From: an uncultured Verrucomicrobiota bacterium
GTDB lineage: Bacteria; Verrucomicrobiota; Verrucomicrobiia; Opitutales; Seribacteraceae
Assembly: GCA_902580225.1 (NCBI GenBank)
Contig: CACHJU010000007.1
Span: 1-64,000, forward strand
DNA: 64,000 bases
Reading direction: 5' to 3'
The stretch's first letter is position 1. Each line of letters opens with the position of its first letter. The position numbers were made by a program, and so were the translations under genes. Positions 49-6,002 of this stretch are shown one piece after another. Below the pieces are notes generated by a model, which was not told the DNA's origin, made no database searches, and saw nothing but the letters and a program-made list of their open reading frames with translations.

Positions 49-906
49 ATGAGTCTTAACTTAGGAGGAGGCAGTACGACCTCGAACTTCAACGCCTTGC
101 AACTCGGAAACGCACAAGCTATGCTTAGCCAAAGTCTAATGCGCCTTTCGAGTGGAAATCGGATCAATAAACCATCCGATGACCCTGGAGGCCTGGCTGT
201 TTCAATGAAACTGAAACATGCTATTACTGTGACCAGCGCAACCAAAAATAATGTGGACAATGCACTCTCTTTTACGGACACCCAGGATGGTGCCCTAGAG
301 TCTATTGCAGAAATACTTGACCGGATGTCAACGATTCGTACAAGTTATGGAAGCGGTACGGCAACCTCATCAGACAAAGATAGTTATGCATCCGAATTCA
401 AGGAGTTACAAAAATCGCTCAACAGTTTTAGGAGCGAGACATTCAACTCACTTAGTTTGTTTACTACAGGAACTAACTCAAAAGATGTTTATATATCTAC
501 AAAGGGAGATTCCGGTTCGTCTATCTCAATAAGTTCTCTAAATATTGATGAGGCTTTGAGTATAAATGCGCAAATTAACTTAGGAGAAGCCGCAACCACC
601 ACTGCTGCGGTTACTATTTCCGATGTGAGCATTGAGAACATAACATCGGTCATTTCAAATGTAGCCAGTTTGCGAGCAACCAGTGGAGCGACATCGTCAA
701 GACTTCAGTTTTCCTCTGATTTCTTAGCAACTAGCAAGACAAACTTGCAAGCAGCGAACAGCAGAATCATGGATGTGGATGTTGCGGACGAAGTGACTAA
801 CTATGCAAAATATAATGTCCAAGTGTATGCAGCAAGTGCAGCCTTGGCACAATCTAACCTCAATATGGGTATAGTCTTAGACTTACTCAATTTTGGCCGA
901 AAATAA
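49..906 (+). CDS. Flagellin, short form (D0/D1 only)
   Basis: Structural subunit of the flagellar filament, exported by the flagellar type III apparatus. The N-terminal signature RLSSGNRINKPSDDPGGLAV (residues about 32-51) and the C-terminal helix with DVDVADE and the ending NMGIVLDLLNFGRK match flagellin D0/D1 regions. At 285 aa there is almost no surface-exposed D2/D3 domain, so this is a minimal flagellin. The ATG is preceded by an ACGAGG-like ribosome site about 10 nt upstream, one of the few clear ones in the window. It is the first of three tandem flagellin genes and is separated from the second by an inverted repeat. The family call is firm. Which subunit is the main filament protein cannot be told from sequence, though the better ribosome site and short form fit a major subunit. 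Confidence 0.93.
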   Translation: MSLNLGGGSTTSNFNALQLGNAQAMLSQSLMRLSSGNRINKPSDDPGGLAVSMKLKHAITVTSATKNNVDNALSFTDTQDGALESIAEILDRMSTIRTSYGSGTATSSDKDSYASEFKELQKSLNSFRSETFNSLSLFTTGTNSKDVYISTKGDSGSSISISSLNIDEALSINAQINLGEAATTTAAVTISDVSIENITSVISNVASLRATSGATSSRLQFSSDFLATSKTNLQAANSRIMDVDVADEVTNYAKYNVQVYAASAALAQSNLNMGIVLDLLNFGRK

Positions 907-925
907 GCCCTGTGCTTTAATGATT

Positions 926-971
926 TGGCGTACCACTCTTATTTCAAATTTGAACATAGAGTGGTGCGCCA
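926..971 (+). repeat. Imperfect inverted repeat (hairpin) between flagellin genes
   Basis: Arms of 14 nt at 926-939 (TGGCGTACCACTCT) and 958-971 (AGAGTGGTGCGCCA) pair with a single G-U. The 18-nt loop contains the palindrome TTCAAATTTGAA at about 943-954. No T-tract follows, so it is not a classical intrinsic terminator. It may be an mRNA-stabilising or attenuating hairpin that sets the first flagellin transcript apart from the two downstream genes. The structure is seen directly; the role is inference. Confidence 0.6.
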
Positions 972-995
972 GGTTGGCCAAACAATTTACAAAAA

Positions 996-2363
996 ATGTC
1001 AATTATCTCTCCATTTATAGATAACCATCACCAAATTAGGCAGTCTATTCGTCAAAGACAAATCGTTGATTCCAATGAAAGAATCAGTTCGGGGAATCGC
1101 TTTAATGACAGTCAATCCGGAGACCCCGGGTCCCTGCGAATATCCACTCGCTTGGAAGTTGAAAACAAATTCTCTCATTCGACGAAAAAAAATTTGGAAA
1201 ATGCATATATTTTGGCTCAATACCAAGCTGATGTGATGCATTCAGCAGATAATGTTTTGGGAAGGATGAACGATTTAGCTTACCAGGCAACCGATATTAT
1301 GACTAGCAATAATCAGAGAGAAGTTTTGGACACAGAATTTAAGTCATTATCAGGGCAACTAACCGATCTCTTATTTGATCGTACATTCGGAAAAGTCTTA
1401 TTCGACCCGCTAGCTTCTGAAAACATCAAAACATTCAATTCAGGTCCGAAAAAAACTGGTAGTGCTGCCAGAGTTGAAGAGCCTTCAATCGATCTAGGAG
1501 CTCTGTCCGCTAAAGTAAAACTTTGGTGGGACCCTATGTATGTAAGAGACAGATTCCAGATTTATGTGGGTGGAAAAAGAATATTCGACACCGGTGAATA
1601 CCGGTCGAATGTAGGAGGCACTAGGTCCGAAACAGTATCTGATGTTCCCCAATATGATGGTAGTGGTAATAAGATTCTTGATTCAAATGGAGATCATATC
1701 TTTCAATCCCAAGTTATAGATGGTGATTATTTCGAAATTGATTTCGGACCAGGAACCATTGGTGTCCAAGAGGGTACAGACTCAAATCCCAATCATGGCA
1801 ATTCTGGTGATGCTGGTGATTTCTCGAGCTACGGGTACGAGCCTAATCATTATATTTTCACCGATGCACCAGTTGGCGACAGTTCTGTAATACAATTTGT
1901 GATCAATGATGAAGGCCCGGAAGGCATTACAAAATCCCCAAATACACTATGGGACAGGTTTTATAAAATTGAAGCGAAGGAATTGATTGGTCCCAAGGGT
2001 ATTAAAAATGAAAAAGGGGAACTTCTAGAAATACAACCAGTTGGTTTTGCCACAATGTCCGATCAAGATCTTCTATCAAGAGAGAATGCGAGCGTTGCTC
2101 TTACAAAAACCCGGGATGAAATCAAGAGTCTGCAAACTCAATTATATACACTGGCAAAAACATTTTCAGAAATCAAATTTGGAATAGAAAGAGTCGAAAG
2201 CAGAAGTCGCACTCAGCAGACAAGTCTTGGTAAGATAAAAGATGCGGATGTAGCAAGTGAATACACAAAACTAGCTAAAAATCTAATTGTCCAAGAAGCG
2301 ACAAATCATGCAATGGTACACTCCAGGGTTTCAGCCGCAAACACCTTCAATCTTTTAATGTGA
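996..2363 (+). CDS. Flagellin with large central insert domain
   Basis: Flagellin-family protein of 455 aa. Residues about 1-140 form an N-terminal D0/D1 region (RISSGNRF near 29-36, then long helices). Residues about 365-455 are the C-terminal region, with KDADVASEYTKLAKNLIVQ and a helical end NTFNLLM. Between them lies an insert (about 163-350) rich in beta-type sequence, with KVKLWWDP, DRFQIY (185-190), RIFDTGEY (195-202), GDYFEIDFGP and VIQFVINDEGPEGI. The same motifs recur in the next gene, so the insert is a conserved domain rather than random hypervariable sequence. It would lie on the outer face of the filament. No clear Shine-Dalgarno is visible. Family call is firm; the insert function is unknown. 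Confidence 0.9.
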   Translation: MSIISPFIDNHHQIRQSIRQRQIVDSNERISSGNRFNDSQSGDPGSLRISTRLEVENKFSHSTKKNLENAYILAQYQADVMHSADNVLGRMNDLAYQATDIMTSNNQREVLDTEFKSLSGQLTDLLFDRTFGKVLFDPLASENIKTFNSGPKKTGSAARVEEPSIDLGALSAKVKLWWDPMYVRDRFQIYVGGKRIFDTGEYRSNVGGTRSETVSDVPQYDGSGNKILDSNGDHIFQSQVIDGDYFEIDFGPGTIGVQEGTDSNPNHGNSGDAGDFSSYGYEPNHYIFTDAPVGDSSVIQFVINDEGPEGITKSPNTLWDRFYKIEAKELIGPKGIKNEKGELLEIQPVGFATMSDQDLLSRENASVALTKTRDEIKSLQTQLYTLAKTFSEIKFGIERVESRSRTQQTSLGKIKDADVASEYTKLAKNLIVQEATNHAMVHSRVSAANTFNLLM

Positions 2364-2391
2364 CAAGCAAGTTCTGCTCTCTTGAAAATTT

Positions 2392-3672
2392 ATGAATTTG
2401 ATATCACCAGTTTTATCTTCACGTATTGAAACTCTTCATTCAATGCGAGCAAGAGATATAGCTGAAACAAGCAACCGAATTGCAACTGGAGATCGTTTCT
2501 CAAGCGACCCATCAAAAGACTCAGCAGCTTATCGAATTTCTAAAAGATTAGAAATCGAAAGTAAATTTTCAAATTCAGCAAGACAGAATTTTGAAAATGC
2601 TTACACTTTGGCTCAGCAGCAATCTGATATAGTTGCCTACGCAGAGTCGGTGATAAAAAAAATGAATGTTCTTGCTTACGAAGCAACCGATCCCACATCA
2701 AGTGATTATCACCGAGAAGTACTAGACAGAGAATTCCAAGAACACTCGAAAAGTCTGCAATCACTTATGTTTGATCGAACTTTTGAACAACAACTTCTAG
2801 ATCCACAATCCGCTGATTATATCGACACACAAATAATTTATGAGGACGAAGAAAGTTCCTCTGGAGCGAATGTTAAAAGAGTTGACATATCAGCTCTTGG
2901 TGCAAAGTTAAAACTTTGGTGGAATACTACTGATGCCTTCTCTACCAGGGACCGGATTCAACTTAAACAGGGAGACAGGTGGTTTTTTGATTCGGGTGAA
3001 TATTTATCTAACGACGGATCCGGATCCCGCAGAACTGAAAATATAAACGGGCAAATAGTACATGGAGATTATTTTGAAATCGACATCCAGCCCAATCAAA
3101 TTTCTTACACCAGTGCATCTGATAATAAAGGCAATTCTAACTCATCACTCGCTCCGGGCTATCCAAAGGTACAAGCACCAAAGGGTGACAGCACAGTAAT
3201 TAAAGTTGCGGTTAACGAACCTGGACCTGAAAATATCAATAGATCAAATCCGAGCGGTTGGTCCTGGCGATTATCTTGGGATGTTCAGCAAATTGAAGGT
3301 CCTAAAGGTGTTGCAGATGAAAAAGGATCTTTATACGAGTTGTTACCTCTAGGATTTTCAACTCTCAAAGGGTATGATATCACTTCTCGTGTAAGTGCAG
3401 CCAATGCTCTAGAACGGTCCGAACTTGAGCTAAAAAGCTTAAGAAATCAAATTTACACATTAGCTAAGACTTTCTCCGAGGTTCGTTTAAAATCGGAATA
3501 TATGGGACAAAAAAACATTTCCCAAAATGTGGCTCTGGGGCGAATTAACGACTCGGATTTGGCAAGCGAATATACAAATCTTGCAAAAAATCTTTTATTA
3601 CAAAATGTATCCAATCATGCACTGATTCACTCTCGTTTATCTGCTGAAAATGTTATCAATTTAATTAGCTGA
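2392..3672 (+). CDS. Flagellin with large central insert domain, paralogue
   Basis: 426 aa flagellin, clearly a diverged tandem copy of the preceding gene. Both share the N-terminal pattern (LE-E-KFS, ENAY-LAQ, REVLD-EF, MFDRT/LFDRT), the insert motifs (LKLWW, DRIQLK at 187-192, WFFDSGEY at 197-204, GDYFEIDI, NEPGPENI) and the C-terminal flagellin end (NDSDLASEYTNLAKNLLLQ, then AENVINLIS). The insert (about 165-320) is shorter than in the upstream copy because the loop between the FDSGEY and GDYFEI motifs is reduced. The gene starts 28 nt after its neighbour and ends 5 nt before the ATPase gene, so the block is very likely co-transcribed. The role as a minor or adhesive filament subunit is inference. 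Confidence 0.9.
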   Translation: MNLISPVLSSRIETLHSMRARDIAETSNRIATGDRFSSDPSKDSAAYRISKRLEIESKFSNSARQNFENAYTLAQQQSDIVAYAESVIKKMNVLAYEATDPTSSDYHREVLDREFQEHSKSLQSLMFDRTFEQQLLDPQSADYIDTQIIYEDEESSSGANVKRVDISALGAKLKLWWNTTDAFSTRDRIQLKQGDRWFFDSGEYLSNDGSGSRRTENINGQIVHGDYFEIDIQPNQISYTSASDNKGNSNSSLAPGYPKVQAPKGDSTVIKVAVNEPGPENINRSNPSGWSWRLSWDVQQIEGPKGVADEKGSLYELLPLGFSTLKGYDITSRVSAANALERSELELKSLRNQIYTLAKTFSEVRLKSEYMGQKNISQNVALGRINDSDLASEYTNLAKNLLLQNVSNHALIHSRLSAENVINLIS

Positions 3673-3677
3673 AAATC

Positions 3678-5543
3678 ATGATTGCAAGAGATAATGAATT
3701 ATCATTTGTCACGGAGGGTTTTTCCGCTCAGGGATTACTTAGATCCGCAGTCGTAATAGGTCCTGAGGGTATAGGTAAAACGGTTTTTATAGAAAAAGTT
3801 AAGGATAAATTCTTGCTCAAAGAAATTAGACCTCTGATTATTGCTCCTTTTTCACTAAATTGCAGAGACTTACCCTCATTAGTTTCTTCTATGGCAAGAG
3901 ATATATCGACTGGAAATGACATACAAAATTCTGAAATTGGAAAATTTACCCGTCTTCTAGGCTCTCAGATAATTCAAATTGAAACCGCCTTTCGCGAAGA
4001 TGGTGACATTAATAAATTTGGTGATAAATTGGCATCCTCTTTTGTTACCGGAATTGAAGATGCGATCATTAATAGTGGAATTGATCTTAAAGAAATCAGC
4101 CCACTATTCATTATTGATGATCTAGATAAAATCGATACAAGCCTTCGCAATTGGCTGAGTAGTTCCTTCAACCAAAAGATCAGGAAATCAATACTTTTTA
4201 AAAAGTGCAGATTCTTATTTTCAGCAAAACAAGATTTCACCGAATTAAATAAATTCTTCGCTAATTTTGGATTTGAAAAAACATTTCCGATTAATCTACC
4301 ATCCTTTACAGCGGATCATTGTTTACAATTTGCGAAGCAAAAAGGTTATGAAATCACAAATCCGGATGAGTACAAAATGAAATCTGAGGGCAATCCATTG
4401 AAATTGTTGAATATTTTAAAAAATTCCACTATTATAATTCCTAGTAAAAGTAAAGATATGAGCAAAACTGACCCAAAAAGTATTCCTTCATTTTCTGATT
4501 TTTCAGAAAAAGAATTAAATTATCTATTATTTGCATCCTATCCAACCAGGATAAATAGATATAACCTAGAATTTTTCTGCTCACCCAAAGACGCTGCCTT
4601 TTGTTTCAATTGGCTTAAGAGGCAAAAGAATATTGCTCAATCTCAACCTGATGGCGACTTAATCCTAGATGAACAATTCAAAAGTCAAATGAGGGAGTTC
4701 CACCAACAGGAAGACCCTGAAGAAGCTGAAAAAATGTCCACAACAGCGACTATCATTGATGCATTTACATCTATTTTCCCTAATCCAAACGATCATTGGA
4801 TTCCCGTGAATCTCCACATATTTCAGTCATTCACCAAAAATCTATGTAAAAGTCTTTTCGATGAGATTGAATATGGTGAAATATCAAAGTTTATTGATGA
4901 TAGAGATGATATTTTAATTTCATCCAATAAACAATTTACCTTCAATGATGATATTAAACTCATAACAAAAAGGTTTGTTGAAATTGGGGGTGGTTCACCC
5001 AAAGAAGGATTAAGTGAAAAAGCTAAGTCCGAATGGACAAAATATCAGGAGGAATCCACTCAAAAAAGAAGCCTTCTCGAACAGGAAAAATCAAACCTTG
5101 AAGAAGAAGCTTTTGATGCAGAAAAACAAATTCTTTATTTAGACGAACTGAAGAAACAATTGGTCAAGGATTTTAAGAATCCGCCAAAGCAGAATTCCAA
5201 GAAAGAATATTCCTTCAGTACATCTATGATTTTAGTTGTTCTTGGCTTTGCAACCATGGGTGCAAGTTTATTTTTTGATTCATTGGGTACCATACATGCA
5301 TCTTGTGGTTTAGTTTTGACCATTTTTGGTTTTTTCTGGCCGAATGTCGAAATCAAGAAACCGGCACTTCAGACTGCCGGGGGTAGTCCTAGACTTGCAA
5401 TCGAAACTCAACAACGCTCTCTTGCACACAGAATCAATGGTTTATCTTCTCGAGTATCCTCAATACACGGAAACCTAGATATACTCACCAAAGACTTGGA
5501 AGCTTTAGATCAAGGTATGAATGCACCTTATTTATCCGAATAA
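3678..5543 (+). CDS. Membrane-anchored STAND/AAA-like ATPase linked to flagellins
   Basis: 621 aa predicted P-loop NTPase. It starts with an AAA_16/ORC-like opening (ARDNELSFVTEGF), followed by Walker A GPEGIGKT (28-35) and Walker B LFIIDDLD (143-150). A sensor-type segment, CRFLFSAKQDFTEL, lies near residues 176-190. A wHTH-like or helical middle follows, then a coiled coil (about 440-500). Two hydrophobic segments (about 513-535 and 540-557) form a membrane hairpin, and a short helical tail ends the protein. This architecture resembles STAND/NACHT-type signalling ATPases, but no precise family is recognised. The ATG is only 5 nt beyond the stop of the third flagellin, which implies translational coupling. 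A link to filament assembly or sensing is inferred from position only; it could also be an unrelated passenger. Confidence 0.75.
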   Translation: MIARDNELSFVTEGFSAQGLLRSAVVIGPEGIGKTVFIEKVKDKFLLKEIRPLIIAPFSLNCRDLPSLVSSMARDISTGNDIQNSEIGKFTRLLGSQIIQIETAFREDGDINKFGDKLASSFVTGIEDAIINSGIDLKEISPLFIIDDLDKIDTSLRNWLSSSFNQKIRKSILFKKCRFLFSAKQDFTELNKFFANFGFEKTFPINLPSFTADHCLQFAKQKGYEITNPDEYKMKSEGNPLKLLNILKNSTIIIPSKSKDMSKTDPKSIPSFSDFSEKELNYLLFASYPTRINRYNLEFFCSPKDAAFCFNWLKRQKNIAQSQPDGDLILDEQFKSQMREFHQQEDPEEAEKMSTTATIIDAFTSIFPNPNDHWIPVNLHIFQSFTKNLCKSLFDEIEYGEISKFIDDRDDILISSNKQFTFNDDIKLITKRFVEIGGGSPKEGLSEKAKSEWTKYQEESTQKRSLLEQEKSNLEEEAFDAEKQILYLDELKKQLVKDFKNPPKQNSKKEYSFSTSMILVVLGFATMGASLFFDSLGTIHASCGLVLTIFGFFWPNVEIKKPALQTAGGSPRLAIETQQRSLAHRINGLSSRVSSIHGNLDILTKDLEALDQGMNAPYLSE

Positions 5544-5573: not shown

Positions 5574-6002
5574 CTAATTTCTGGGTATCTTTTTATTAAT
5601 ACATTCTAAATACTCGTAAATCGAGTTGATATCATCCTTAGAGAAATTTGACATTAGTTTTTTTTGTAAAGATATTGCCTCCTTCCTTCCCAAAAGAAAA
5701 ATTTTCTTACCTCGCTTACTAAGTGAAATGTGATTTTCTCTTTTGTCGTTTCGATTCTCCGAGAGTTCTATGTATTTCAATTGCTGCAATCGCTTTATGA
5801 TGGAGGATAAATTGTTTTTATTTGAAACAATCAAAATAGAAAGTTCACGCTGACTGAGTTTTTTTGGCGAAAAATCAAAAAGAGTTCGTAAAACGGTATA
5901 CTGAACGGTTGTTATAGGTAGATATGAAATCCTCCGACTGAAATGATGGTTCAATCCGAACCAACATGCTCTGATTAAAACAGGAAATTTTCTTAATGCC
6001 AT
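5574..6002 (-). CDS. MarR-family transcriptional regulator
   Basis: 142 aa winged-helix repressor type. The central part contains KLSQRELSILIVSNKNNLSS (about 47-66), which fits the recognition helix region, followed by the typical wing pattern LKYIELSENRNDKRENHISL and the helix start SKRGKKIF. Flanking helices would form the MarR dimer interface. It converges on the ATPase gene with a 30-nt gap. The upstream 358-nt AT-rich region separates it from a divergent lipoprotein gene, so autoregulation and control of the neighbour are plausible but not shown. The ligand is unknown. Confidence 0.88.
   Translation of the reverse strand: MALRKFPVLIRACWFGLNHHFSRRISYLPITTVQYTVLRTLFDFSPKKLSQRELSILIVSNKNNLSSIIKRLQQLKYIELSENRNDKRENHISLSKRGKKIFLLGRKEAISLQKKLMSNFSKDDINSIYEYLECINKKIPRN

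Follow-up and report, generated by a model that had tools for sequence, protein, structure and literature searches.

A membrane-anchored STAND NTPase encoded beside flagellin genes in Opitutales and its possible place in a flagellum-linked signalling module

Most STAND proteins known so far act in immunity, in cell death or in the control of transcription; NAIP/NLRC4 are the flagellin-sensing NACHT receptors of animals, and some STAND NTPases of phage defence have membrane segments. Knowledge of how flagella are regulated comes from few phyla. In Xanthomonas, Pseudomonas and Campylobacter, HDOD proteins have been reported to influence flagellar genes or swimming (PMC6543031, PMC11813219, PMC11004494). 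In a literature search limited to open-licence papers, we did not find a STAND protein linked to flagella.

Here we analyze a locus at the start of a 64,000-nucleotide stretch of DNA (the window, at its full length) from an uncultured bacterium of the Opitutales. An earlier note, made from the sequence, had described three flagellin genes followed, 5 nt after the last stop, by a 621-aa protein, and the open reading frames were found where it had placed them, on a common strand and with spacings of 89, 28 and 5 nt in order. The features of the locus, with the evidence on which each assignment rests, are the following:

49-906, + strand: FLA1, flagellin ORF, 285 aa (Pfam Flagellin_N/Flagellin_C, terminal signature, tree, NTPase pairing)
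922-975, + strand: long RNA hairpin after FLA1, core stem of 18 bp, 922-939/958-975 (folding energy, conservation, compensatory pairs)
996-2363, + strand: FLA2, flagellin ORF, 455 aa (Flagellin_N, model, Foldseek)
2392-3672, + strand: FLA3, flagellin ORF, 426 aa (Flagellin_N, 44% identity to FLA2)
3678-5543, + strand: membrane-anchored STAND NTPase ORF, 621 aa (Pfam, alignment, profile, model, fold matches)

The first base of the window is the first base of the contig, in a genome that is 67% complete; relatives carry further flagellin genes 5′ of the first flagellin, which the window contig starts too close to show. On the other side, a MarR-family gene (5574-6002, - strand) converges on the NTPase gene, and similar-sized convergent genes are present in several relatives.

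Domains, fold and conservation of the NTPase

In line with the earlier reading of the 621-aa protein, Walker A and Walker B motifs, long helices and a membrane hairpin of two helices were all recovered by alignment and in a structural model:

3678-4238, + strand: NTPase domain, residues 1-187 (model, alignment)
about 3759-3782, + strand: Walker A, GPEGIGKT (alignment)
about 4098-4127, + strand: Walker B, LFIIDD (alignment)
4239-4670, + strand: lid helices with the GxP motif (G238-N-P240, about 4389-4397) and first winged helix, residues 277-331 (alignment, model)
4671-4997, + strand: helical segment and second winged-helix-like domain, residues 332-440 (model)
5010-5510, + strand: long helix 445-500, transmembrane hairpin 517-552 (5226-5333) and long helix 570-611 (model)

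In Pfam, the protein matched NACHT (PF05729) with an E-value of 2.4e-5 and 24.7 bits, under the curated cut-off of 26.7, and AAA_16 with 2.6e-4. Its STAND-like nature, as the earlier note had proposed, was supported by the GxP motif, by a profile match and by fold matches to MalT and plant NLRs. Residues G238 and P240 are invariant in alignments of 15 family orthologues and of 25 orthologues with distant ones included, an insertion separating the two in genus g2; the best PDB match of the NTPase profile was the STAND protein PH0952 (6mfv; 1.2e-9), over a stretch that begins with Walker B and includes the winged helix; and residues 1-355 of the AlphaFold2 model (mean pLDDT 85.7) came closest to MalT (8bob), plant NLRs (NRC2) and ORC/Cdc6 in Foldseek and VIA-align comparisons (VIA Z 12-15, about 200-300 aligned residues). 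In the same model the membrane hairpin lies between short strands, and the long helix 570-611 begins at the motif ETQQRSLxHRI. Membrane anchoring, also claimed before, agrees with a pair of hydrophobic segments kept at the same position in distant homologues. No repeat family of a repeat sensor (TPR, LRR, WD) was found in Pfam for the window NTPase.

The transmembrane part is the best conserved one, with a mean pairwise identity within the family of 55% for the membrane segment and 28% for the NTPase domain. Genus g2 (G006, G002) has lost Walker A, Walker B and GxP or has them in disrupted form, with the remainder intact; elsewhere the catalytic Walker lysine is changed from K to R (G195 and G139) or from K to V (G130), and altogether it is lost in four places. 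Since the site was lost and the protein was kept, catalysis is not the property that is conserved, and the loss of the lysine together with the conservation of the membrane hairpin suggests a STAND switch anchored in the membrane and not a motor. Judged from these sequences, handling driven by ATP is unlikely to be the conserved function.

The phage-defence STAND NTPases with membrane segments offer a precedent for another reading, in which the protein would be an anti-phage sensor with a membrane effector, placed at the flagellin locus and guarding against flagella-binding phages or sensing a disturbance of flagellin. The fold of residues 1-355 also matches the AVAST5 filament and NLR resistosomes, and the flagellin arrays of the family could reflect phage pressure. 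However, PADLOC gave no defence-model match for the window NTPase (in one remote orthologue, a match to PDC-S27 was confined to the first 100 residues), the gene is mostly present in one copy per genome and in flagellar surroundings conserved across families rather than in patchy islands, and the Walker lysine is repeatedly lost while the protein is kept. An anti-phage role appears improbable to us.

Upstream flagellins and the hairpin after FLA1

The NTPase gene was found in 23 of the 42 genomes of the window's marine Opitutales family. In all 20 genomes with upstream sequence, covering all four sampled genera, it is directly preceded by a flagellin gene of the same orientation, and no homologue in this family lies remote from flagellins; the link between ATPase and flagellins that had been proposed is therefore borne out. 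In one locus (L057, G008:C15), the NTPase and the upstream flagellins are all fragmented, by joint decay or by sequencing indels, and this decay was used as evidence only for the upstream flagellin fragment.

The two ends of a flagellin build the core of the filament and contain information for export. FLA1, which matches both Flagellin_N (3.5e-19, 69.7 bits) and Flagellin_C (6e-16, 59 bits) above the cut-off and has no insert, differs at these ends, with the N-terminus MSLNLGGGS in place of INTN and a basic C-terminal tail, NFGRK, in place of LLG. An M[SA]LxLGG N-terminus and a basic tail are the signature of its class, INTN and LLG that of ordinary flagellins. In a maximum-likelihood tree built from the helical parts, a 99/99 branch sets the ordinary flagellins of the arrays, along with the flagellins of other families, apart from FLA1 together with FLA2/3. 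Matches to FLA1 of at least 169 bits were obtained in 16 genomes of the family, always immediately 5′ of the NTPase gene, whereas the 19 family genomes without the NTPase gave none, a co-occurrence that is confounded by contig breaks in the repetitive arrays, which make the absences weak. FLA1 is a separate flagellin class and the constant upstream partner of the NTPase in the window's family.

This pairing could mean that the NTPase is dedicated to the assembly or export of FLA1. As a chaperone or escort bound to the membrane, it would recognise the altered ends and place FLA1 at a defined part of the filament. The two genes are adjacent in 16 of 16 genomes where they co-occur, and FLA1, with its altered D0 ends, is of another class than the array flagellins. 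Nevertheless, the neighbouring flagellin is ordinary in other families (L106, L139, L140), so that the module is independent of FLA1, and the NTPase site is decayed in genomes that keep both FLA1 and the NTPase. We regard a dedicated FLA1 factor as unlikely, while giving it some weight.

FLA2 and FLA3 are paralogues and carry inserts of one kind. Both match Flagellin_N (1.6e-11 and 44.9 bits for FLA2, 1.8e-6 and 28.5 bits for FLA3), their Flagellin_C scores of 18.1 and 17.7 bits, respectively, being below the curated cut-off of 23. A model of FLA2 of moderate confidence (pLDDT 66), which matches flagellin filaments in Foldseek, comprises the flagellin helices (D0/D1) and an all-beta insert at residues of about 150-327. 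As in other flagellins with inserted domains (flagellinolysin and others), the helical ends are kept around the insert; unlike in those, the insert is all-beta and belongs to no recognised Pfam family, and HExxH was not found on reading the sequence. The earlier note had suggested, among other roles, that the ATPase may handle the insert-bearing flagellins. Only 8 of 20 genomes have such flagellins in the interval from FLA1 to the NTPase, and the other 12 have none at this position; as partner of the NTPase they were rejected, and they are optional at the locus. In four loci (L044, L045, L047, L050), another insert flagellin of about 480 aa is located downstream instead.

Flagellin arrays of up to 33 Flagellin_N matches per genome end at the NTPase gene in this family. 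Arrays of 23 and 33 matches per genome were observed in L045/L046/L059 (G019:C35) and on G031 contigs, some of their flagellins being about 1000 aa or longer. Within one array, a flagellin carries a Peptidase_M9 (collagenase) insert, as in flagellinolysin-like proteolytic flagellins (L037:15409-17100, - strand), and FliD caps with a CBM_5_12 carbohydrate-binding module, one of them 1262 aa long, lie beside a flagellin array at L060:18250-20000 (+ strand) and L061:4968-8753 (- strand). A 625-aa PF01973 (MptE-like) protein adjoins the first flagellin of an array (L059:1773-3647, + strand), and genes of like size lie beside the giant flagellin in L060-L062; the PF01973 family includes Maf-type flagellin glycosylation proteins.

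The gap after FLA1 in the window (907-995) folds with a dG of -35.0 and a z of -6.0. A long stem follows FLA1 in 17 of 18 homologous gaps, with z down to -10.9 at other loci, and the energy per base of the FLA1 gap is about -0.3 to -0.5, against mostly 0 to -0.25 in the other intergenic gaps of the same loci, where comparable stems are rare. Compensatory changes were seen in two subgroup alignments (3/21 and 10/21 pairs), and no Rfam family matches the hairpin. An ordinary intrinsic terminator was rejected, since the hairpin at 922-975 has no U-tract, whereas the flagellin-NTPase gaps of other families (L106, L139, L140) have a stem and a U-tract; a stabilising, processing or leaky element is therefore more likely. 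The hairpin may act as an mRNA boundary that parts an abundant flagellin message from a scarce downstream message. In a promoter scan nothing was found between 3600 and 3700, with no excess anywhere in the region, and no promoter-like site separates FLA3 from the NTPase. The close coupling of flagellin and NTPase suggested by the earlier note stood in part: overlapping or 5-nt junctions occur in a subset of genomes only, and at most loci the hairpin divides the conserved flagellin from the gene after it.

Orthologues and their neighbours across Opitutales

Distant orthologues with about 12-20% identity and the same architecture are present in other Opitutales families. Among 273 Opitutales genomes, a first profile identified 35 carriers, two of them later discarded (the weak matches in G085 and G268 covered a short P-loop only), and a profile of the C-terminal part identified 43. 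FlhA was found in 41 of the 43 carriers and in 71 of 230 non-carriers (Fisher 3e-16, phylogeny ignored), and the two FlhA-lacking carriers are genomes 64-67% complete. Many flagellated Opitutales gave no NTPase match, some of them probably false negatives as few candidates per genome were scored, and the module is therefore not essential for flagella. A class-wide search outside Opitutales, again with few candidates scored per genome, returned only short P-loop matches or shorter proteins without hairpin and flagellar neighbours; G438 and G379, whose shorter proteins have neither membrane hairpin nor flagellin, were set aside.

Neighbours of the non-family genes were assigned by Pfam or similarity, and a flagellar, chemotaxis or HDOD gene is close by in 18 of the 22 loci read. 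In L106 and L139 (G070, G263), flgN-flgK-flgL-fliW-csrA plus a flagellin lie near the NTPase gene; the order flagellin-flagellin-NTPase was found in L140 (G233) and flagellin-ATP-grasp-NTPase in G070, G251 and G263. The intervening PylC-like ATP-grasp gene was seen in families f4 and f13 (L106:8650-9618, L139:10165-11343, L142:1640-2782). Further neighbours are fliW/flgL/flgK in L109 and L155 (G076, G090) and flgK/flgL/flagellin/flbT in G195. In four loci (L107, L111, L113, L114) no flagellar or HDOD neighbour was found within about 8 kb, and these four, with nothing further, are what would favour an accidental flagellin-NTPase neighbourhood. Such an accident of gene order is rejected by synteny, with 20 of 20 family genomes and a repeated linkage in distant families against it, and we hold it to be extremely improbable.

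The gene cheA directly adjoins the NTPase gene in L117 (G107) and its homologue in L118 (G079), and an MCP gene is near L115. Together with the coiled-coil membrane anchors, which would fit a landmark role, this is consistent with a protein that serves polar placement or the organisation of the chemosensory array rather than flagellin supply. The commonest and closest neighbours are, however, flagellin and the flagellin regulators (fliW, csrA, flbT), and a placement or array function seems rather doubtful.

An HDOD gene adjoins or lies near the NTPase gene in 12 loci, and none is adjacent to it in the window's family. The order NTPase-membrane protein-HDOD-flagellin-flbT was found in L149 and also in L141. 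In four families (G109, G130, G144, G092) two genes take the place of the single one, for an NTPase (about 430 aa) and a membrane protein (about 220-310 aa), and an HDOD gene comes next; the split point corresponds to near the end of the 332-440 part of the window protein. The two genes overlap by 17 nt in G109 and 8 nt in G144, and in G109 a flagellin gene, flbT and a gene of the size of flaF come after them in the same orientation. An apparent HDOD fusion in G139 (L152, 662 aa) was a spurious reading frame.

A putative signalling module and its relation to known systems

We propose that Opitutales have a signalling module dedicated to the flagellum, which tunes flagellin supply and of which the 621-aa protein is the NTPase and membrane subunit in one, a reading whose chances of being right or wrong we judge evenly balanced. 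The full module would probably combine a winged-helix STAND NTPase with a coiled-coil protein that bears the membrane hairpin and, as its third part, an HDOD protein for the output, at the locus where flagellin is made and regulated (flagellin; fliW/csrA or flbT/flaF; flgK/flgL; cheA). The cytoplasmic NTPase and winged-helix part would be a nucleotide-dependent conformational switch, nucleotide-independent where the site has decayed; the membrane hairpin may anchor it close to a chemosensory complex or to where flagellar proteins are exported, and the switch may adjust the amount or the choice of the flagellin made or exported. We infer the flagellar location, as well as signal, target and direction of control. 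In most lineages the two subunits are fused, as in the window's marine family, where the gene forms the 3′ end of multi-flagellin arrays, after FLA1 with its altered ends, and the hairpin after FLA1 probably keeps the flagellin mRNA abundant and the regulator scarce.

In a more specific variant, the NTPase would sense flagellin itself: as a STAND switch anchored in the membrane, it would recognise flagellin that is still unexported (FLA1 in the window's family) by direct interaction and adjust flagellin synthesis. It would be a bacterial parallel, by analogy, to NAIP/NLRC4, acting on the cell's own flagellin; we consider both the sensor and the parallel a long shot.

An order-wide module of this composition (STAND NTPase, membrane hairpin, HDOD) linked to the flagellum was not found in the literature searched, and a conserved membrane-anchored switch at the flagellin locus of swimming Opitutales suggests a further layer of flagellar control. 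The multi-flagellin arrays of the marine Opitutales, with the FLA1 class tied to the switch, offer a concrete system for the choice among many flagellins.

Like the STAND NTPases MalT, PH0952, plant NLRs and NACHT proteins, the window protein has a P-loop NTPase with GxP followed by a winged helix, ORC/Cdc6 being as close to it in fold as MalT and NRC2. Unlike these STAND NTPases, it has a second winged helix, long helices, a membrane hairpin and a fixed flagellar context, and its orthologues have lost the catalytic lysine in several lineages. The HDOD protein encoded after the NTPase or the membrane protein at many loci of Opitutales recalls the motility regulators GsmR, SadB, PSPTO_4229 and Cj0248, for which a STAND or membrane partner is not described in the literature surveyed. 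With the flagellin homeostasis systems FliW-CsrA and FlbT-FlaF the NTPase shares, in several families, the genomic position beside flagellin genes; no sequence relation to them was seen, and the NTPase is a component additional to theirs.
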